Below, in pieces: positions 17,330 to 39,882 of a stretch of 64,000 bases of DNA. This DNA is from Candidatus Manganitrophus morganii (lineage in GTDB: Bacteria > Nitrospirota > Nitrospiria > SBBL01 > Manganitrophaceae). The notes under the pieces were generated by a model. That model ran no database searches, was not told the DNA's origin, and was given only the letters and a program-made list of their open reading frames with translations. The position numbers were made by a program, and so were the translations under genes. Position 1 is the first letter of the stretch. Each line of letters starts with the position of its first letter. The DNA lies in the NCBI GenBank assembly GCA_021651055.1, contig JAJHOH010000001.1, positions 1,240,001-1,304,000 of the forward strand. The letters run 5' to 3'.

Positions 17330-17385
17330 AGGCGGCATTGAACAAGACGGAAAGAGACGTCTCGGCTTCGACCAAGGAGGGGAGG

Positions 17386-20265
17386 ATGAAAAGAGCGGTC
17401 TGTGCATTATTGTTGATCCTAATCGTGATGGGTGGATGCGCCGGGGCGAAGAAACGGCTGGAGGGGCAGCGCGATCTCGACAGCTGCGCGAAGATGGCGG
17501 CGAGCGGGTTCCGTCCCGTCGCCGGCGAGCGGACCGAGCGGTTCCTCGGAAAGGTCCAGGAAGCGACTGCCCGCTGCCGCGGCGGAGAAAAAGCCGCCGC
17601 CTTCCGGAGCGCCCCCTGGCTCGATTGGTCGAACTACTGGGCCACCGGCGATCTGAACAGCCGCGTCCCCGGCTCCGACAGGACCAATCGGCATCTCGAT
17701 CCGAACGGCCGCGGGATCGACGGCGCCCTCCTCGATCTGGAATATCAGCGGGTGGAGCTGGTCAAATTCAATCTCTTCGACAACAGCGGGACCTATCCCG
17801 ATTATATCCAGGGACGCGACGGCATTCCCGGTGCGGCATTGAAGGTCTGGGACACAATGCGTCTGCCGCAGAGCGATCCGAACTTTTCCGCCGTCGGGGG
17901 GAACGGCCCGCAGCTTTGCCGAGGAGAGTTGATCCGACATCGCACACTGACCGGGATCTGCAACGATCTCAAAAACCCGGCGATGGGATCGACACAGATG
18001 CCGTTCGCCCGAAACGTTCAATTCGAGGCGACCTTCCCCGACCTCGGTAAAGAGGAGCTGGCCCGGAACCGTCACGGCGATCGTCTCGGTCTGCTCACCC
18101 CCGATCCGCAGGTGATCAGCCGGAAGCTTTTCACCCGCCCGCAGTCACAGCCGGAGAAATGCCGAGAAGGGCAGGGGCTCCCCGGCGACTCGCCCGAAGC
18201 AAACTGCGACTACAAGAAGGCCCCCTTCTTCAACGTCCTGGCGGCGTTCTGGATTCAGTTCATGACGCACGACTGGTTCTCTCATCTGGAAGAAGGACAG
18301 AACGGGCCGGAGATGATGGCCGTCGGCTGTGCGACGCAGAAGGTGGCCAATGTGGAGCAGCCGATCACACCGGAAGAGGCTGCGAAGCTCGGCTGCCGTC
18401 CGGATGATCGAATGGAAAAATCGCTCACCGCCGACGAAAGCGATCCCGCGACCTTCATCCACAAGGGCAAGCGCGTTCTCACTCGCGCCTACAAAACGAC
18501 GAACAACAACGTCACCGCCTGGTGGGACGCCTCTCAGATCTACGGCTATGACGAGAGGTCGCGCCGCCGGGTGAAGCGCGATCCGGCCGACCGGGCCAAG
18601 CTCTTGTTGGTTTCGATCCCGCAGCGGGAGGCGGCCGGCGAGAAGAACGGCTACCTCCCCCCGTTTTCGCCCGGCGATCCGATCCATCCCGCCTGGTCGG
18701 GCCAGGAAGCGACCGCGTTTCCGGACAACTGGTCGATCGGCATGAGCTTCTATCACAACCTCTTCGCACGCGAGCACAACCTCTTCGTCGACGCCTTCCG
18801 GACGCAGGCGGCGGAGATGCCGGAGGCCGACTCCGGCCTTCGCAACCCCGCGCGGCCCGATGGGGTGATCCGCAACAAGGAAGTCACCGACGACGAGCTC
18901 TTCGAGGCGGCGCGGCTGGTCGTCTCGGCGGAGATCGCCAAAATCCACACGATCGAATGGACCCCGCAGCTCCTCTACGATGAGCCGCTCTTCCTCGGAA
19001 TGAACTCCAACTGGAGCGGGCTGATCCACGGCGACAACCTCGTCTCCCGGGCGTTGGAGAAGATCGTGATCGACAACTTCGGCGCCTCGGAAAACGCCCG
19101 GAAAGCGGGACAGTGGTATTCGGTCTTCGCATCCGGCCCGGGGATCTTCGGTCTCGGAAGCCGGGTCTATTCGGATGACGCAATCCTCGCCAAGTTCGAT
19201 CCGAAGAAGACCGACATCTGGAATGTCGCGAACCCCGATCATGTCAACGGCGGGATCAACCACTTCGGCTCCCCCTTCAACTTCCCGGAAGAGTTCGTCA
19301 CCGTCTACCGGCTGCATGCCTTGGTCCCCGACCTGATCGAATTCCGCGAGGCCGGAGATCCGAATGTCATCCGAAACAAGATTCCGGTGATCGAAACTTT
19401 CCGCGGAAAAGCGACGGCGGCGATGGAGAGCCGCGGCCTCGCCAACTGGGCCCTTTCGATGGGGCGGCAACGCTTGGGTCTCCTCACCCTCCAGAACCAG
19501 CCGCAGTTTCTCCAGAACCTCCCGATGCCGCGCCTTCAGACGGCGACGAACAGGCTCGATGTGCCGGCGCTCGATCTGATCCGCGACCGCGAGCGGGGGG
19601 TCCCCCGCTTCAACGAGTTCCGCCGGCAATACGGATTGAAGCAGTTGACCCGCTTCGACGACTTCATCGATCCGCGCCTTCCGAAAGATTCACCGGAAGG
19701 GGTTGAACAAAGACAACTGGTGGGACTCCTTCGCGAGGTCTACGGCCAGCACATTTGCGATGCGTCGAAGGTCATCACCTCCGCTCAGGTCAACGACGAC
19801 GGCACGCCGATCACCGACTGCCTCGGACATCCCGACGGAAGCCTGGTCGACAATATCGAAGATGTCGATACTGTCGTCGGCTGGCTCTCGGAATTCACCC
19901 GCCCGCACGGCTTCGCGATCTCGGAGACCCAATTCCAGGTCTTCATCCTCAACGCCTCCCGGCGTCTCTTCAGCGACCGCTTCTTCACCTCCAGCTTCCG
20001 CCCCGAGTTCTACACCCATCTCGGCGTCGAGTGGGTGACGAACAACGGCCCCGACGGAAAAGTAATCGAGAAGGGAACGCCGAACGGCCACCTGGTGGAG
20101 GTCTCCCCGCTCAAGCGGGTGCTGCTGCGGACCGCGCCGGAGCTGGCGCCGGAGTTGTCGAATGTGGTCAACGCGTTCGATCCCTGGGGGCGCGACCGCG
20201 GCGAGTATTATTCGCTGGAGTGGAAACCGCGCGCGGGGGCGGAGGAAGACGAGGGATTTAAATGA
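17386..20265 (+). CDS. Animal-type haem peroxidase, predicted lipoprotein (PIOX/dioxygenase-like)
   Basis: A 959-residue protein from an ATG with a strong GGAGGGGAGG site. The signal peptide ends VMGGC, a lipobox, so it should be anchored to the outer or inner membrane facing the periplasm. The peroxidase-cyclooxygenase fold is shown by the distal-His region FMTHDWFSHLEE (His295), FYHNLFAREHNLFVDAF (about 450-470; compare LxxLFxREHN), VVSAEIAKIHTIEWTPQLL, and the proximal-His region EFVTVYRLHALVPDLIEF (His644). The EF-x-VYR-x-H-x-L-x-PD form is closest to fatty-acid alpha-dioxygenase/PIOX and bacterial homologues, some of which are linked to Mn(II) oxidation. The substrate cannot be decided. 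Long for the family (usually 550-700), with a unique N-terminal ~280 residues. Confidence 0.88.
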   Translation: MKRAVCALLLILIVMGGCAGAKKRLEGQRDLDSCAKMAASGFRPVAGERTERFLGKVQEATARCRGGEKAAAFRSAPWLDWSNYWATGDLNSRVPGSDRTNRHLDPNGRGIDGALLDLEYQRVELVKFNLFDNSGTYPDYIQGRDGIPGAALKVWDTMRLPQSDPNFSAVGGNGPQLCRGELIRHRTLTGICNDLKNPAMGSTQMPFARNVQFEATFPDLGKEELARNRHGDRLGLLTPDPQVISRKLFTRPQSQPEKCREGQGLPGDSPEANCDYKKAPFFNVLAAFWIQFMTHDWFSHLEEGQNGPEMMAVGCATQKVANVEQPITPEEAAKLGCRPDDRMEKSLTADESDPATFIHKGKRVLTRAYKTTNNNVTAWWDASQIYGYDERSRRRVKRDPADRAKLLLVSIPQREAAGEKNGYLPPFSPGDPIHPAWSGQEATAFPDNWSIGMSFYHNLFAREHNLFVDAFRTQAAEMPEADSGLRNPARPDGVIRNKEVTDDELFEAARLVVSAEIAKIHTIEWTPQLLYDEPLFLGMNSNWSGLIHGDNLVSRALEKIVIDNFGASENARKAGQWYSVFASGPGIFGLGSRVYSDDAILAKFDPKKTDIWNVANPDHVNGGINHFGSPFNFPEEFVTVYRLHALVPDLIEFREAGDPNVIRNKIPVIETFRGKATAAMESRGLANWALSMGRQRLGLLTLQNQPQFLQNLPMPRLQTATNRLDVPALDLIRDRERGVPRFNEFRRQYGLKQLTRFDDFIDPRLPKDSPEGVEQRQLVGLLREVYGQHICDASKVITSAQVNDDGTPITDCLGHPDGSLVDNIEDVDTVVGWLSEFTRPHGFAISETQFQVFILNASRRLFSDRFFTSSFRPEFYTHLGVEWVTNNGPDGKVIEKGTPNGHLVEVSPLKRVLLRTAPELAPELSNVVNAFDPWGRDRGEYYSLEWKPRAGAEEDEGFK

Positions 20266-22115: not shown

Positions 22116-22994
22116 TTACGGCACCAGCTCCGTCTTGCCGTCGGCATCCTTGGAAACTTTGATCACGCCGATGGCCCCGCTCAGCGCGTCGGAAAGGGAG
22201 TGGGTCACGATCGGGTAGCTCCCCTCTTCCGGGAAGGTCAATTCGAAGATGGCGCCGCCGGCCGGAGGGATGGTCCAGGTCTGGACCCCGCGGACCGCGT
22301 TCGCCGGATTTCCGCTTTCATAAACCGCGTCGAAAATCCCCCCGATCACATGGATCGCCGAGAAGTTGTTCGGTCCGATATTCACGATGTAGAGCCGGAC
22401 CAGCTCCCCTGGTTTGGCGATCAACGGCTTTTCGATATATTGATTGACCCGGCCGTTGAAGACGACATGCTTGCGCCGTTTTTCCATCATGGCGGGGACG
22501 TCGGGGTAGAACTCACTCTGAACGAGGACATACTCTCTCGCCGGCCGCATCGGCTTTTGCGGATCGACGATGACCACCCCGAACATGCCGTTCGCGACAT
22601 GCTGGATCATCGGCGAGGTCCCGCAGTGGTAGGCGAAGAGACCGGGATATTCGGCCTTCCAGGTAAACGAATTCGTCTCTCCGACCCCGATGCTCCGGTA
22701 GGCCACTCCGGGATTGATCCGGGCCGCGTGGAAGTCGATCGAGTGGGGCCGGGCCCCTTTGTTCTCCAACGTAAACTCGACCTGGTCCCCCTGCTTCACG
22801 CGAACCACGGGGCCCGGGACTTTTCCGTTGTAGGTCCAGGCTTCATACGTTTCGTCGGCGGAAATCGGAAGGGTCTTCTCTTCGGCCGTGAGATGAACTT
22901 TCACGGTGGCGGCCGACGTCCCGCCCGGCAGGATCATCCAGCCGATCAAAACGCCCGCGGCGCCGATGGCGGCGGCTTTTTTCAAATGTGTCAT
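22116..22994 (-). CDS. Two-domain copper oxidase of the nitrite reductase (NirK)/multicopper oxidase type
   Basis: A 292-residue exported protein (signal peptide to about residue 29) with two cupredoxin domains. All copper ligands of a NirK-like enzyme can be aligned: type-1 copper His84, Cys124, His132 and Met137 (HCGTSPMIQHVANGM); type-2 copper His89, His123 and His265 (VTHSLSDA); and the catalytic pair Asp87 (HSIDFH) and His215 (SAIHVIGG). So a functional enzyme is likely. The family reduces nitrite to nitric oxide, but related two-domain oxidases oxidise phenols or metals, and the sequence does not settle which. It is shorter than classical NirK (about 340). AAAGGAG precedes the ATG. It is 56 bases downstream of a MarR gene on the same strand. 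Confidence 0.85.
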   Translation of the reverse strand: MTHLKKAAAIGAAGVLIGWMILPGGTSAATVKVHLTAEEKTLPISADETYEAWTYNGKVPGPVVRVKQGDQVEFTLENKGARPHSIDFHAARINPGVAYRSIGVGETNSFTWKAEYPGLFAYHCGTSPMIQHVANGMFGVVIVDPQKPMRPAREYVLVQSEFYPDVPAMMEKRRKHVVFNGRVNQYIEKPLIAKPGELVRLYIVNIGPNNFSAIHVIGGIFDAVYESGNPANAVRGVQTWTIPPAGGAIFELTFPEEGSYPIVTHSLSDALSGAIGVIKVSKDADGKTELVP

Positions 22995-23983: not shown

Positions 23984-24991
23984 ATGGATATATCTCAAAA
24001 TATCCTGCTAACAGGTGCGGGGTTTAGTCACAACTTCGGTGGATTTCTTGCAGATGGGATGTGGTCACAAATTTTTAATCATCCAGAGATTCAGGACCGA
24101 CAATTAATTAAAGATGTTCTGCTGAAGGACTTTGATTATGAGTCTATATATAACGAGGTTCTTCTCGGTGAGACAGGTAAGTGGTTTGATTCAGATAGAA
24201 CAGCTATAAAGACCGCAGTTCTTGAAGCATATAGACAACTAGATCAGCTTATTTTAAATTACAATAAACACCCTAATATAGATTACATGTATGCGGTCAA
24301 TAAATTTATTGAGCGTTTTTCCGGTGACATGAGAACGATTGGATTTTTCTTTACTCTAAATCAGGATATCTTTGTCGAAAGATTTTATAACTCATCGAAC
24401 AAACCGCTTGTGCTTCCGAAGATGAAACGAATACCCGATTACTCAAGTAACGATAGAAGAAAATCTATGCTGCAAGAAGGTGACTTTATCACGGTAATAA
24501 GAGGAAATGACTCAACTTGGATACCAGCCGATCAATTATCCAATCTGGAATTACATTATGTAAAGTTACACGGTTCATTCAACTGGAAAAGCTCAGATGG
24601 TTCAAATATCATGGTGATTGGGAAAGATAAAGAACATCAAATAAGCAGAGAGCCTCTTCTTAGATGGTACGCTGATATCTTCAAGCAAGTTCTTTCTCAG
24701 AAAGATAGGAGGATATTAATTATCGGATACCGCTTCCGTGACAAGCATATTAACCAGATTATCGCAGCGGCTGTAAAAGAACATGGGTTGAAGATATATG
24801 TAGTTTCGCCAGAAGGGCCAAGAGATTTTATCAAAAAATTAGAACATAGCGAAACAGATCACTGTCCTTTTGGATCAGATATTCTCGAAGGGCTATCAGG
24901 CTATTTCCCGTATAAACTTCTAGAAGCATTAGAAGGGGATCAATTTAAATTATTGAATAAACATTACTTCCTTGAGAATCAACGACCATAA
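23984..24991 (+). CDS. SIR2-family (NAD-binding) protein
   Basis: A 335-residue protein with the SIR2-like fold: GAGFSHNFGG (residues 10-19, NAD loop), TLNQDIFVERF (the TxNxD motif), and KLHGSFNW carrying the likely catalytic His. Later comes IIGYRFRDKHINQII, typical of SIR2_2-type proteins. No zinc-binding Cys cluster, so it resembles the NADase/defence type rather than a classical deacetylase. No separate effector domain is seen. Composition is far AT-richer than most neighbours, suggesting recent transfer. The stop overlaps the next gene by one base. An antiphage NAD-depleting role is a reasonable but unproven inference. Confidence 0.85.
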   Translation: MDISQNILLTGAGFSHNFGGFLADGMWSQIFNHPEIQDRQLIKDVLLKDFDYESIYNEVLLGETGKWFDSDRTAIKTAVLEAYRQLDQLILNYNKHPNIDYMYAVNKFIERFSGDMRTIGFFFTLNQDIFVERFYNSSNKPLVLPKMKRIPDYSSNDRRKSMLQEGDFITVIRGNDSTWIPADQLSNLELHYVKLHGSFNWKSSDGSNIMVIGKDKEHQISREPLLRWYADIFKQVLSQKDRRILIIGYRFRDKHINQIIAAAVKEHGLKIYVVSPEGPRDFIKKLEHSETDHCPFGSDILEGLSGYFPYKLLEALEGDQFKLLNKHYFLENQRP

Positions 24992-25752
24992 TGGGTTCAA
25001 CTCTGCTCCTAACTCATGTTCTTCCGCGTATGATATCTAAAGATATTCGTGGAAACTCATTCTTTATATTGCTATCTGTGTTATGCGTCGCAGTTTTTCT
25101 CCAAGGCTGTGTAGCCCTAAGCTTTGGCCAAAGCAGTTATCCCTTCATAGATGAAATTGAATCAACGAAACTAAATACGAACGGCGTTTTAGAATTGCCT
25201 GATCTTACTATTTCGGTTCGGCCTCAAAATGCTGGGGTGACTACTGCTGTGATGGGATATCTCGTACCGATTCTTCCTCTTCCCGGTACCAAAACAAGGC
25301 CAACAGAAGACTTTAGAATTTATTTACAGTTTGAGTCCCTTCACAATGAGGTGTTTTCTCTCAATCCCGATCAGGTGAGAATCTTCGTCGATGGCAGCAA
25401 GAGCGAGATTACACCAACCAAATATCTAACGTTACCTGATGATCCATATCCTCCTTCCTATGCCACGTTTGCCAGGAATCCATCGTATGTATCACCTGGA
25501 CACAATTGGCGCTGCAACGATGCCCTTCTGACAGAAGGTAAGATGACACTCGTCACTCCCAGCGGCCCGATGCATTTTCATCAAAGGATATGTTTTGTGC
25601 TGGAATATCCGACTACCACTCCAACACCAGAACAGGAATTTACTCTGACTATCGGAGGTCTCAGACAGGAGAACAACGAAGTCGAAGTACCGCCAATTCA
25701 CTTTCGCCGGAAGGTCCGCATCAAGTATGAACTCATTCCGAACCCTCCTTAA
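24991..25752 (+). CDS. Predicted lipoprotein of unknown function, coupled to the SIR2 gene
   Basis: A 253-residue protein whose start overlaps the SIR2 stop by one base. A hydrophobic run (FFILLSVLCVAVFLQGC) ends in a lipobox-like LQGC; the Met at 25030 would give a cleaner signal peptide. The mature part is beta-rich (PDLTISVRPQNAG, EDFRIYLQFESLHNEVFSLNPDQVRIFVDG, FRRKVRIKYELIPNPP) with two extra Cys. No known domain is recognised. The AT-rich composition matches the SIR2 gene, so both appear to have arrived together. The odd pairing of a cytoplasmic NAD-binding protein with an exported one needs explaining. Confidence 0.6.
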   Translation: MGSTLLLTHVLPRMISKDIRGNSFFILLSVLCVAVFLQGCVALSFGQSSYPFIDEIESTKLNTNGVLELPDLTISVRPQNAGVTTAVMGYLVPILPLPGTKTRPTEDFRIYLQFESLHNEVFSLNPDQVRIFVDGSKSEITPTKYLTLPDDPYPPSYATFARNPSYVSPGHNWRCNDALLTEGKMTLVTPSGPMHFHQRICFVLEYPTTTPTPEQEFTLTIGGLRQENNEVEVPPIHFRRKVRIKYELIPNPP

Positions 25753-25765
25753 CTCCAGGCATTAG

Positions 25766-25951
25766 AGTCGGAGCAAGCAGGAATATTCATATACGCTAGC
25801 CGATGCCAATGTTATCTTTCAATGGCTGCCAGCAATCATATTGACTCCCTTTATGCATCCGATCGAAGTCACAGGCGAAGTTCGCAGAAATATATATAAG
25901 AACCTCATTACGCAGATGCAAAGAGATGTGGTTTTACCAAAATCGGAATAG
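25766..25951 (+). pseudogene. Remnant of a membrane-protein gene (C-terminal part)
   Basis: A 61-codon open stretch ending at TAG (25949-25951) with no start codon at its beginning. It reads like real protein: SYTLADANVIFQWLPAIILT then PIEVTGEVRRNIYKNLITQM. It has one hydrophobic segment followed by a basic amphipathic helix. The usual start is absent, so this is probably the tail of a truncated gene in the AT-rich islet. It may be only chance coding. Confidence 0.35.
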
Positions 25952-25998
25952 AATGTTCTTTCTTCCTATAGCCTTCCGTGTTCTATAAAAATTAGGTT

Positions 25999-27411
25999 TT
26001 AGGCTGGTTTGATATTCTGATTCAAATGAAATAGATTCATCGGATCATACCGTTTCTTAATCTCCGCCAGCCGCCGATAGTGCTGCCGGTAATTGCTGCG
26101 GACGCGCTCCTGATCGTCCTCTGACATGAAGTTCACATACCCCCCTTCTTCTGAAAAGGGCCGGAGCGCCTCATAGTAAGCGCGGCCCCACGCGACGTTC
26201 CGCTCCGTGTCGGCCGGATCGGAAAAACTCGGCCCGAGCGCCGTGGCAAAAGAAGCATCCCGGTAGGCGAAGGCGGTGGCGTCGGACTTCACACGATGGC
26301 AGGCGCCGTCGATCGGAAAGAGAATGGTCGCCGTCTGAAGAGAGGGGATGCGGGCGGCGTAGTCGAGATGGACGTCGATCGCGCCGTCGGCAATACGGGT
26401 AATGAAATTCCCTTTCCAGTAGTGATAGAGCCCCTTGGGGAGAAGTTCGTCGAAGAGGGTGTTGATCACCGGGTAGGGCATCCGCTCAAGATACTGACCC
26501 TCGATCGAGCCCAGGCGGCTCAGCCGCCCGCGGACCGCTTCGTCCTGAGAGGCCGGTCCGCTCCAGCAGATCAGCACCGCCGCCATCGGCCGCCCATGCC
26601 ACTTTTCAGGAAGAAACGGCACGGGGAGGCCGAGGGTCAACACCAAAAGCGCATTGAGCTCTTCGGGCGCCTCGTCCATCAATGCCCGGTAGCCGCGAAG
26701 GATGTCGCCGTCGAGCGGATAGAAGGTCGGCCCGCCGAGGATGTCGGCCACCGGATGGAGTTGGTATTCGAAGGAGGTCACGACGCCGAAGTTCCCGCCC
26801 CCGCCGCGGAGGGCCCAGAAGAGATCGGGCTCCCGCTCCTTGCTGCAAGTGACGGAGCGGCCGTCGGCGGTGACGACATCGGCCGAAAGAAGATTGTCGC
26901 AGGAGAGCCCGCAACGGCGGGCGAGATGCCCCATCCCACCGCCGAGGGTCAGCCCGGCGATGCCAGTGGTGGAAACAATCCCGCCGGTCGTCGCCAGCCC
27001 GAAGGGATGCGTGGCGTCGTTGAAATCGCGCCAGGTGCTTCCCCCCTCCGCCCGGGCGGTGCGGCGCTCCGGATCGACACGAACCCCTTTCATCCGTCCG
27101 AGGTCGAGCACCATCCCGCCGTCGCAGGTGCTGAAACCGGCGATGCTGTGGCCGCCCCCCCGGACCGCCAGCAAAAGATCGTGCTCCGCCGAAAACCGCA
27201 CCGCGGCGGTCACGTCGCCCGCTTCCGCCGCTTGAACGATCATCGCCGGACGGCGGTCATGCATGGCGTTGTAGACGCGGCGCGCCTCATCGTAGCCGGA
27301 ATCCTCCGGTCGAATCAGCCCGCCGCGCAGGCGTTCTTTGAGTTCCCGGACCCTCGCTTCCTTCAAGCGGCTCTCCCCGCCCGAGCGGAGCGCGATAAGC
27401 AAATCGGACAT
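25999..27411 (-). CDS. FAD-linked oxidoreductase of the PCMH/BBE (berberine-bridge) family
   Basis: A 470-residue protein from the ATG at 27411, which has GAGGTCGAGG upstream. The FAD-binding domain has VRGGGHSIAG (His88, the likely 8-alpha-histidyl FAD site), GGIVSTTGIAGLTLGGG and LSADVVTADG. The cysteine used for a second covalent FAD link in GOOX/BBE enzymes (GxCxxVG) is replaced here (GGIVSTTG), so a single covalent link is expected. A C-terminal BBE motif is present (NLFHLNQNIKP). These enzymes oxidise alcohols, sugars or alkaloids. No signal peptide, so it is cytoplasmic; substrate unknown. Confidence 0.88.
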   Translation of the reverse strand: MSDLLIALRSGGESRLKEARVRELKERLRGGLIRPEDSGYDEARRVYNAMHDRRPAMIVQAAEAGDVTAAVRFSAEHDLLLAVRGGGHSIAGFSTCDGGMVLDLGRMKGVRVDPERRTARAEGGSTWRDFNDATHPFGLATTGGIVSTTGIAGLTLGGGMGHLARRCGLSCDNLLSADVVTADGRSVTCSKEREPDLFWALRGGGGNFGVVTSFEYQLHPVADILGGPTFYPLDGDILRGYRALMDEAPEELNALLVLTLGLPVPFLPEKWHGRPMAAVLICWSGPASQDEAVRGRLSRLGSIEGQYLERMPYPVINTLFDELLPKGLYHYWKGNFITRIADGAIDVHLDYAARIPSLQTATILFPIDGACHRVKSDATAFAYRDASFATALGPSFSDPADTERNVAWGRAYYEALRPFSEEGGYVNFMSEDDQERVRSNYRQHYRRLAEIKKRYDPMNLFHLNQNIKPA

Positions 27412-36456: not shown

Positions 36457-39400
36457 ATGAAAAGTCGCATTGTGTTGATCGCCCTATTGTTATCGATCTC
36501 TTCGCCGGGCGACGCCGCTTTGCCCGAGCCGAAAACCGAGACCGACCGGATCCAAACCGCTTATGGACAGATTTCCCTCAGCTTTGAGGCCAACCATGGC
36601 CAGACTGACTCTAAAGTAAAATATTTCTCCCGCGGGAAAGGGTACACCCTCTTTTTGACCTCGAACGAAGCGGTGTTGTCCCTCCAGAAAGGGGAACGGG
36701 CTGAAAACCCGAATATTGAAAATCCTCCGGCTCTATTGAGGATGCGGCTTTCGGGCGCGAGCCAAACGCCGGCCGTTTCGGGAGAAGAGGCGCTCCCCGG
36801 CAGACAGAACTACTTCATCGGAAATGACCCGAAGAACTGGCGGACCGATATCCCAACCTATCAAAGGGTGAAGTATCAGGATGTCTATCCGGGGATCGAT
36901 CTGGTTTATTACGGCAACCAGCGCCAGTTGGAATATGACTTTATCGTCGATCCGGGGATCGATCCAAAGAAAATCGAGCTTCGCTTTGAAGGGGCGGACG
37001 GGATGGAGATCGATCCGCAAGGCAATTTGGTGCTCACCGTCCAAGGAGAAAAAATCCGGATGCACAAGCCGGTGATCTATCAGGAGCAGGCGGGTCAGAG
37101 AAGATTCATTCCTGGACATTATCTGCTCAAAGGGAAAGGGAAGGTCGGTTTCCACGTCGCCGCCTATGACAGAACAAAACCGCTCATCATCGACCCGGTC
37201 TTGAGCTACGCCACCTTCTTAGGAGGAAGCGACCACGATCGAGGGAATGGCATTGCCGTCGACAGCTCAGGGAACGCCTATATTACAGGATCGACCAGAT
37301 CTCTCGATTTTCCAACGGTAGGTACATTTGACAGCACGCTGGGCGGTCCAGTGGATGCATTTGTGGCCAAGCTAAATCCATCCGGCACCGCCCTCCTCTA
37401 TTCCACCTATTTAGGAGGAACTGGCTCGGACAAAGGGAGCGCCATTGCAGTGGATACCTCCGGAAATGCCTATGTCACAGGGGAGACCGATTCACTCGAA
37501 TTTCCCACAACGACTGGCGCATTTGACAGGACCCTGAACGGTACAGATGCCTTTGTGGTTAAGTTGAATTCCTCCGGAACCGCCCTTCTAAATGCTACCT
37601 TTGTGGGGGGAAGCAGCTTCGACGTCGGCAACAGTATTGCTATTGATGCCTCCGGGCAGGCGTATGTCACCGGCTTGACCTATTCAGCCGACTTCCCAAC
37701 CAGCCCCGGTGCCTTTGATACCACTTTCAATTGGTCGTCGTTTAAGGACGAGGCCAGCGATGTTTTTGTCGTTAAGCTAAATCCGGGTGCAACCTCTCTT
37801 CTCTATTCCACCTTCCTGGGGGGGATGAGGAATGATTCTGGCCATGATATTGCGGTTGATGCTTCGGGGAATGCCCATATTACAGGGAGCACCACTTCCC
37901 CCAACTTTCCGACAACCGCCGGCGCGTTTGATACGACCTTCGCCGATGGTGGCGATGCCTTTGCGGCGAAATTGAATTCTTCCGGCTCAACACTCCTATA
38001 TGCGACATACCTGGGTGGAAGCGACCTCGACAACGGTCGGAGCATTGCTCTGGATCGCATCGGAAGTGCATATATCACGGGCGATACCGCCTCGTCCGAC
38101 TTTCCGACCACCCTAGGAGCGTATGATCGAAGTAATCCGAACTCTCCCCCATCCGGCGATGGGTGCGAAAGCGGTTGCCTGGGTCGTTTCAGTATTATCG
38201 ACGCCTTTGTCACAAAATTAAATCCCACCGGTTCCGCCCTAGTCTACTCCACTTATCTGGGGGATTCAGAATCGTCGAATTTCGGCAATGGCATCGCCGT
38301 CGATGCTTTCGGAAATGCCTATGTCACGGGACGTGATGAATTTAGCGATCCGAGTAATACCCTGATGAGCGTCTTTGTTAGAAAATTAAATACGACGGGT
38401 TCCGCTCCGATTGATACCCTCTCTCTGGCAAGAAGTGAGCAGGAGTCGGGCAACGCTATCGCTGTTGACGCTCTAGGGCGTGCCTACATCACCGGAGGGA
38501 CGACCTCTTTCGACTTTCCAACCACCCCCGGCACATTCGATCCGACGCCCAACGGCTTCAGCGATGCTTTCGTGGCCAAGGTGATCTTCCCTTCTTCCAC
38601 TTTCACCGACAACTTCGATCGCCCCGCCTCGACCAACCTCGGCGCTTCATGGAATGAAGTGCTTCCCGATCTGGAGCTCTCCAACAATCAGGTTCGGAAC
38701 GTCACCCCCAACAACAAAGCGGCGATCTTCAGACAAGCGGTGGGGCCCGATCATTCCGTCTCCGTCGATTGCATGGTGACCGCTCCCGGAAACAGCTGCG
38801 GGGTGGTCGCCCGCTGGTCTTCCGAGAGCAATTTCTATCGGGCCCGGATCGATGCCGGCCAGGGGAACATCGCCCTCTTCAAAACGGTCAATGGGACCAC
38901 CACGGCCCTCGGGTCCGCTTCCTACCCTCTGCGATTGAACACGTATTACCGTCTGCGCCTCGTCGTCAGCGGCACGTCGCTGGCGGTCTTCGTTGCCAAT
39001 CACACGAATCCGATCATCACCATTTCGGACGGCGCATTGAGTTTCGGCGATTTTGCCGGCATTCGCTCATATGCCACCGCGGCCAATACAACATGGTTCG
39101 ACAATTTCAATTTGAGCACCCCCCTCTCCGATACCTTCAGCCGCTCCGATTCGAGCAGTTTGGGGTCGAATTGGAGCGAATACATGCCGAACCTGGAAAT
39201 CTTCTCCGGCCAGCTTCGAAACGTCGACGCCGGAAACAAAGCGGCCCTCTTTCTCCAACCGGTCGGGCCCGATCAGAACGTGGCGGTTCACTGCAAGGTG
39301 ACCGCCGCCAATAATGCCTGCGGGGTAATGGCCCGCTGGTTGAACGCCAACAATTTCTATCGCCTGCGCCTTGATGCCGGACAGCAGAACATCGCCCTCT

Positions 39401-39882
39401 TTAAAACGGTGAATGGCGCGACGACACAGATTGGTGTCGCCAACCGCCCGATGCAGCTCAATACCTACTACCGGCTTCGTCTGATTGCAAAGGGGAACTC
39501 TCTGGCGGTTTTCTTTAACGATGAGACCAGTCCGGCCTTTACCGCCTCCGACAGCGCATTAACGGCCGGAGACTTTGCCGGAATTCGATCCTCCGCCTCC
39601 GCTGCCTTCACCACCGGGTATGACAACTTCAGTGCCGGGGTCGCCCGGGATGCCTTCGGGAGCGCGTCGGGCGGCGCATTTACGAAAGCGGCGGGAGCCC
39701 CTGAGACCCTCTCCGCCGTGGAAGGTGAGGACGCCGCAGAGACGGCCGGCGGGTGCGCGATGAATGTCGGCGGGAAATTCGATCCGACATTGATCGGTCT
39801 CTTAGGCGCGGCTGTGATTTATCTCGGGTGGAAAAGAATCAAAAGAAGGCGGGCGGTCCCTGCCGATCGATCCGCCAAGTAA
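36457..39882 (+). CDS. Large surface protein: SBBP repeats, paired C-terminal beta domains and a sorting-like tail
   Basis: An 1141-residue exported protein. After a signal peptide comes an N-terminal domain (SFEANHGQTDSKVKYFSRGKG) common in front of SBBP propellers. About residues 240-710 hold eight or so SBBP repeats (GNAYITG, then FPTTxGAFD, DAFVAKLNPSG, LLYSTYLGG). Two copies of a concanavalin-like domain follow (DNFDR..LGASWNEVLPDLE and DTFSRSDSSSLGSNWSEYMP), each about 165 residues. The end reads GGCAMNVGGKFDPTL, a hydrophobic helix and KRIKRRR, like Gly-Cys/helix/Arg sorting tails (for example JDVT-CTERM). It is probably anchored on the surface. No enzyme motif. Confidence 0.85.
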   Translation: MKSRIVLIALLLSISSPGDAALPEPKTETDRIQTAYGQISLSFEANHGQTDSKVKYFSRGKGYTLFLTSNEAVLSLQKGERAENPNIENPPALLRMRLSGASQTPAVSGEEALPGRQNYFIGNDPKNWRTDIPTYQRVKYQDVYPGIDLVYYGNQRQLEYDFIVDPGIDPKKIELRFEGADGMEIDPQGNLVLTVQGEKIRMHKPVIYQEQAGQRRFIPGHYLLKGKGKVGFHVAAYDRTKPLIIDPVLSYATFLGGSDHDRGNGIAVDSSGNAYITGSTRSLDFPTVGTFDSTLGGPVDAFVAKLNPSGTALLYSTYLGGTGSDKGSAIAVDTSGNAYVTGETDSLEFPTTTGAFDRTLNGTDAFVVKLNSSGTALLNATFVGGSSFDVGNSIAIDASGQAYVTGLTYSADFPTSPGAFDTTFNWSSFKDEASDVFVVKLNPGATSLLYSTFLGGMRNDSGHDIAVDASGNAHITGSTTSPNFPTTAGAFDTTFADGGDAFAAKLNSSGSTLLYATYLGGSDLDNGRSIALDRIGSAYITGDTASSDFPTTLGAYDRSNPNSPPSGDGCESGCLGRFSIIDAFVTKLNPTGSALVYSTYLGDSESSNFGNGIAVDAFGNAYVTGRDEFSDPSNTLMSVFVRKLNTTGSAPIDTLSLARSEQESGNAIAVDALGRAYITGGTTSFDFPTTPGTFDPTPNGFSDAFVAKVIFPSSTFTDNFDRPASTNLGASWNEVLPDLELSNNQVRNVTPNNKAAIFRQAVGPDHSVSVDCMVTAPGNSCGVVARWSSESNFYRARIDAGQGNIALFKTVNGTTTALGSASYPLRLNTYYRLRLVVSGTSLAVFVANHTNPIITISDGALSFGDFAGIRSYATAANTTWFDNFNLSTPLSDTFSRSDSSSLGSNWSEYMPNLEIFSGQLRNVDAGNKAALFLQPVGPDQNVAVHCKVTAANNACGVMARWLNANNFYRLRLDAGQQNIALFKTVNGATTQIGVANRPMQLNTYYRLRLIAKGNSLAVFFNDETSPAFTASDSALTAGDFAGIRSSASAAFTTGYDNFSAGVARDAFGSASGGAFTKAAGAPETLSAVEGEDAAETAGGCAMNVGGKFDPTLIGLLGAAVIYLGWKRIKRRRAVPADRSAK

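Follow-up and report, generated by a model that had tools for sequence, protein, structure and literature searches.

A predicted exported, alpha-dioxygenase-like haem lipoprotein in Candidatus Manganitrophus morganii

The gene and its surroundings

The DNA analysed here, referred to as the window, is a 64,000-nucleotide stretch of Candidatus Manganitrophus morganii that corresponds to positions 1,240,001-1,304,000 of a 4.29 Mb single contig. Positions 17386-20265 of its forward strand form one open frame of 959 amino acids plus stop, and direct reading places a Shine-Dalgarno-like AAGGAGG at 17374..17380 (+), with the ATG 5 bases downstream. The open reading frame, Pfam, PDB matches, a tree and Foldseek together lead us to describe the predicted product as an exported alpha-dioxygenase-like haem lipoprotein. 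It matches the Pfam animal haem peroxidase model PF03098 (E 1.6e-68), in keeping with the peroxidase-family frame of about 960 residues reported in a first-pass annotation of the window, and it has no match among NCBIfam models. A genome search turned up no other PF03098 gene. Among the matches listed, its top relative is encoded by Candidatus Manganitrophus sp. GAC4 and is 97% identical.

Other features of the window are recorded here in their own right. Nothing in the corresponding part of GAC4 matches the segment 22116-27456, which is possibly a genomic island; it includes a low-GC stretch (24001-26000, 40%), and a SIR2 anti-phage-like gene occupies 23984-24991. A two-domain multicopper oxidase-like protein is encoded at 22119-22994 (-), and its top NCBIfam match, to copper nitrite reductase, falls below the cut-off (200.9 versus 296.3 bits); the Manganitrophaceae paper describes two novel multicopper oxidases per genome. 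At 36457-39882 (+), a protein of 1141 residues combines SBBP beta-propeller similarity with a JDVT-CTERM sorting domain.

Active site, fold and family placement

Reference residue numbers for OsaDOX and CalDOX were taken from PMC8720084. We took CalDOX to be the PF03098 protein of the Calothrix PCC 6303 plasmid pCAL6303.01, an identification based on the genus and on the fit of every published residue number. The published haem, catalytic and channel positions of CalDOX all land as expected on the 959-residue protein, at H295, H644, Y641, F637, H521, W525 and T526, and further channel residues match CalDOX positions at L118, R122, F850, F853, I854, A857 and R860. By alignment, the distal haem histidine is H295 (18268..18270, +), equivalent to OsaDOX H157 and CalDOX H131, while profile and alignment place the catalytic tyrosine Y641 and the proximal histidine H644 (OsaDOX Y379 and H382) at 19306..19317 (+). 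Proximal and distal histidine motifs had been noted at first pass, and both residues are present in the CalDOX alignment and invariant in all 72 members of the long family to which the protein belongs. Y641, which lies three residues before the proximal histidine in the motif EEFVTVYRLH, is likewise kept in 72 of 72. Alignment also identifies carboxylate-binding and channel residues H521, W525 and T526 (18946..18963, +; OsaDOX H311, W315 and T316), together with F850, F853, I854, A857 and R860 (19933..19965, +; OsaDOX F549, F552, I553, A556 and R559), which comprise channel positions and the carboxylate-binding arginine. The carboxylate-binding pair H521 and R860, along with T526, is kept throughout the long family (72/72). 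Two OsaDOX channel residues, M325 and A331, are replaced by Leu and Ser in the 959-residue protein, and chain length or position preference may therefore differ.

Structural comparisons point in the same direction. The best match in a sequence search of the PDB was the plant alpha-dioxygenase 4kvj, with E 1.1e-54 for the single sequence and 2.4e-73 for a profile, and myeloperoxidase and lactoperoxidase followed far behind (6.5e-7 or weaker). Foldseek placed plant alpha-dioxygenases at ranks 1-4 (E 2e-27), the next family reaching 3e-13; E-values of these different tools are not comparable with one another. The structure was predicted from 72 family members (pLDDT 79.8, pTM 0.85), and an earlier prediction from 22 close sequences was discarded as poor (pLDDT 43). 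In a midpoint-rooted tree that contains some long branches and one characterised reference, CalDOX, the long family (97/95) is sister to the short alpha-dioxygenase group that holds CalDOX (96/97), and DHD-type peroxidases stand apart from both. A COX-like row from Nitrosomonas europaea has an unreliable placement (branch length 10) and was not used. The phylogeny proposed at first pass thus bears out the likeness to PIOX and related dioxygenases suggested there, as do the nearest solved structures.

The protein shares with plant alpha-dioxygenase (PIOX; PDB 4kvj and 4hhr) and CalDOX the fold, both haem histidines, the radical tyrosine, the carboxylate-binding His and Arg, the equivalent of Thr316 and nearly all channel residues, and it is 38% identical to CalDOX across aligned positions. 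Sequence, predicted fold and tree all give good support to its placement with the fatty-acid alpha-dioxygenases (alpha-DOX/PIOX). The L-Y-x-W-H motif of COX and LDS proteins does not occur at the proximal site, which reads VYRLH, and the P450 domain that is a feature of LDS is missing. Other members of the superfamily, 10S-DOX and LDS, oxygenate other carbons, so that alpha regiochemistry is assigned here by analogy only.

Export signal, cysteines and distribution of the long form

The protein begins with a hydrophobic signal that ends in a lipobox-like VMGG-C18 (signal peptide and lipobox, 17386..17439, +; C18 codon, 17437-17439). The lipobox anchoring proposed at first pass is therefore present as a pattern, and on this basis we infer that the protein is exported. 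A simple pattern test, used in place of SignalP, recognised a lipobox in 35 of the 78 family ORFs examined and an AxA-type signal end in 29. CalDOX V18 and R22 align with L118 and R122, so that the stretch ahead of the alpha-dioxygenase start amounts to only about 100 residues with the signal counted. The extra N-terminal region of about 280 residues in the first-pass annotation was an overestimate; in the alignment with CalDOX the remaining length consists of insertions within the alpha-dioxygenase fold, notably at residues ~141-185, 254-277, 305-345, 475-495, 577-620, 765-822 and 888-910. The extension relative to CalDOX, residues 19-117 (17440..17736, +), is defined by alignment, is conserved across the long family and includes the invariant C34 and C64. 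It is followed by the alpha-dioxygenase-like core with its family-specific insertions, residues 118-935 (17737..20190, +), as delimited by profile, alignment and Foldseek.

Ten cysteines (34, 64, 178, 192, 259, 274, 315, 337, 791 and 812) are invariant wherever long-family sequences cover them, and the majority fall within the extension or the insertions. Six short alpha-dioxygenase rows lack them, apart from one chance match at C34. Their invariance, combined with an export signal, suggests disulfides, which probably stabilise the exported form. The predicted lipoprotein export, the N-terminal extension, the insertions and the ten invariant cysteines set the protein apart from plant alpha-dioxygenase and CalDOX, and judged by sequence it is a member of a distinct, apparently exported clade of alpha-dioxygenase type that is marked by these cysteines.

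Relatives are encoded by 204 genome stretches, the best 80 of which range from 97% to 59% identity and span Nitrospirota, Pseudomonadota, Acidobacteriota, Gemmatimonadota and others. Every one of the six Manganitrophus genomes searched carries the gene, which is split over two contigs in one of them. Counting any match, long or short, alpha-dioxygenase-like sequences were found in 20 of 296 Nitrospirota genomes sampled and in 11 of 398 Pseudomonadota genomes, the latter including the genome on which the sample centres; their distribution in bacteria is widespread but patchy. A scan of viral contigs found no relative. One Manganitrophus copy (L088, G005:C19:279529-282405) contains an in-frame TAG, which may reflect either a pseudogene or an error in sequencing.

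Candidatus Manganitrophus is a Mn(II)-oxidizing lithoautotroph (PMC9040806), and the Mn(II) oxidation offered as an alternative at first pass consequently deserved a real test. According to this hypothesis, the protein would resemble MopA in function, as a haem peroxidase at the cell surface that contributes to Mn(II) oxidation by the host, an idea that gains from its presence in all six genomes, its predicted exported location and its membership of the same superfamily as MopA (PMC6247904). In MopA, a Mn-oxidizing peroxidase of the long peroxicin type that is also exported, the Asp and Glu that bind haem covalently are retained, and PERCAL and RTX calcium domains are present (PMC6247904). In contrast, the Asp is replaced in the 959-residue protein (T294-H295-D296, where the control peroxidases L121-L126 have DHD), which also has no PERCAL or RTX motif match, and on these negative motif tests a MopA-like function was set aside. 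The phylogenetic distribution is equally at odds with it. Nitrifiers, methanotrophs, Halomonas and Acidobacteriota all encode close relatives of full length; those in Nitrosomonas europaea, Halomonas and Acidobacteriota belong to organisms not known for Mn oxidation, and the other families of the order that were searched yielded no full-length gene, giving either no match or short alpha-dioxygenases only. Moreover, Cyc2 and PCC_1 are the candidates put forward for Mn(II) oxidation in the Manganitrophaceae study, whose main text makes no mention of a haem peroxidase from these genomes (PMC9040806). We consider a role in Mn(II) oxidation highly improbable, and the alpha-dioxygenase reading weakens what had been a tempting candidate for how Manganitrophus carries out this reaction.

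Gene neighbourhoods and the proposed pathway

At least one recurrent partner gene lies near the long form at 35 of 80 loci, many of which are cut by contig ends and some of which come from related genomes. The most frequent is a catalase-related family (26 of 80), whose best solved match is the coral allene oxide synthase-lipoxygenase, with an E-value of 3.5e-10 that is weak in absolute terms; a DyP peroxidase family, clearly assigned (1e-66), follows at 21. GMC oxidoreductases (8), a Tle1-like phospholipase (7), P450s (5) and tandem RoxA-like di-haem pairs (6) also recur, as do two families that have no Pfam match. Eleven of 12 RoxA-like neighbours contain PYLHNGSV and two CXXCH motifs, and PYLHNGSV is a signature of the Pseudomonas aeruginosa oleate-diol synthase pair PA2077/PA2078 (PMC4496055). 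A fusion of a catalase-related domain with an alpha-dioxygenase occurs in Rhizobium (hhalign probability 99.9%; Pfam detects both domains), and a Nonomuraea protein with a similar N-terminus is an apparent fusion of the same kind.

These arrangements have parallels in known systems. In cyanobacteria, a cyclooxygenase-like 10S-dioxygenase is encoded in tandem with a catalase-related lyase (Brash 2014, as cited in PMC13049297). As with this Nostoc linoleate 10S-dioxygenase and its catalase-related hydroperoxide lyase, a superfamily dioxygenase adjoins a catalase-related enzyme in the 26 relatives, although the Nostoc enzyme is COX-like and ours alpha-dioxygenase-like, with no such partner found in the window genome. 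The coral allene oxide synthase-lipoxygenase (1u5u, 3dy5) similarly joins a catalase-related domain to a fatty-acid dioxygenase, which is a lipoxygenase in coral but an alpha-dioxygenase-like haem protein in the relatives. The six tandem di-haem loci are likened by signature to PA2077/PA2078 (FadCcp), a pair that does not flank the window gene. For the family as a whole, the neighbourhoods, the fusions and the known 10S-dioxygenase/lyase tandem strongly favour lipid oxygenation over metal oxidation.

It could be argued that DyP and catalase-related neighbours make up a peroxide-defence cluster, and that the protein, as its PF03098 membership would allow, is an exported haem peroxidase with little oxygenase activity whose role is to clear H2O2 or lipid peroxides under stress. 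We think this improbable: the DHD motif of true peroxidases is missing, peroxidase activity is reduced in plant alpha-dioxygenase (PMC4420034), and the catalase-related family is nearest, among solved structures, to coral allene oxide synthase and not to true catalases. A second possibility is that the chemistry is the same while the position or lipid differs, with oxygenation occurring mid-chain, as in 10S-DOX, or on acyl chains of membrane lipids or other hydrophobic substrates. In known systems, mid-chain hydroperoxides are substrates of catalase-related, P450 and FadCcp enzymes (PMC13049297, PMC4496055), and the two altered channel residues would fit such a change; the EEFxxVYRxH motif and H521, T526 and R860, being of alpha-dioxygenase type and not the LYxWH type of COX and LDS, make it unlikely, if less so than stress defence.

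We therefore favour, as the probable reading, an extracytoplasmic fatty-acid dioxygenase of the alpha-dioxygenase type, with substrate, oxygenation position and physiological role assigned by analogy with characterised enzymes. After export, the protein would carry an acyl group on C18 and sit at a membrane face. Haem bound between H295 and H644 would be activated by peroxide, oxidising Y641 to a radical, and a fatty acid entering the channel would be held through its carboxylate by H521 and R860. The tyrosyl radical could then abstract a hydrogen, by analogy from the alpha carbon, and addition of O2 would yield a hydroperoxy fatty acid, which may become an aldehyde one carbon shorter or be handed to other enzymes. 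Relatives with catalase-related, DyP, P450 or di-haem neighbours probably pass the hydroperoxide on to those enzymes; the Manganitrophus gene would act without such a cluster. Searches that detect catalase-related and DyP partners in relatives found neither in the window genome, which has one sub-threshold RoxA-like match and one unlinked P450, neither constituting pathway evidence; GAC4 has one distant catalase-related gene. The Manganitrophus gene stands alone.

More tentatively, we speculate that many bacteria have an as yet undescribed extracytoplasmic oxylipin pathway whose first step is catalysed by the long clade. In it a disulfide-rich alpha-dioxygenase would provide hydroperoxides to catalase-related, DyP, P450 or FadCcp-like partners, and members lacking partners, the Manganitrophus protein among them, would feed signals or membrane-lipid turnover. 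Characterised alpha-dioxygenases come from plants and a small number of cyanobacteria. Alpha-dioxygenase sequences from five bacterial phyla were recorded in a 2021 survey (PMC8720084), and in the literature we found no description of an exported, ten-cysteine form of about 960 residues or of its gene clusters. If active, such enzymes would bring nitrifiers, methanotrophs, acidobacteria and a Mn lithotroph within the range of oxylipin chemistry, and could serve as secreted biocatalysts for fatty aldehydes.

A Nitrospirota genome with the long form has a second alpha-dioxygenase match within an open frame of 1753 residues (G213:C1:277783-279552), possibly a fusion. The Nitrosomonas europaea record encodes a second PF03098 protein (L128, G319:C35:23732-24895), COX/LDS-like with an LYRWH motif, about 2 kb from its long form.
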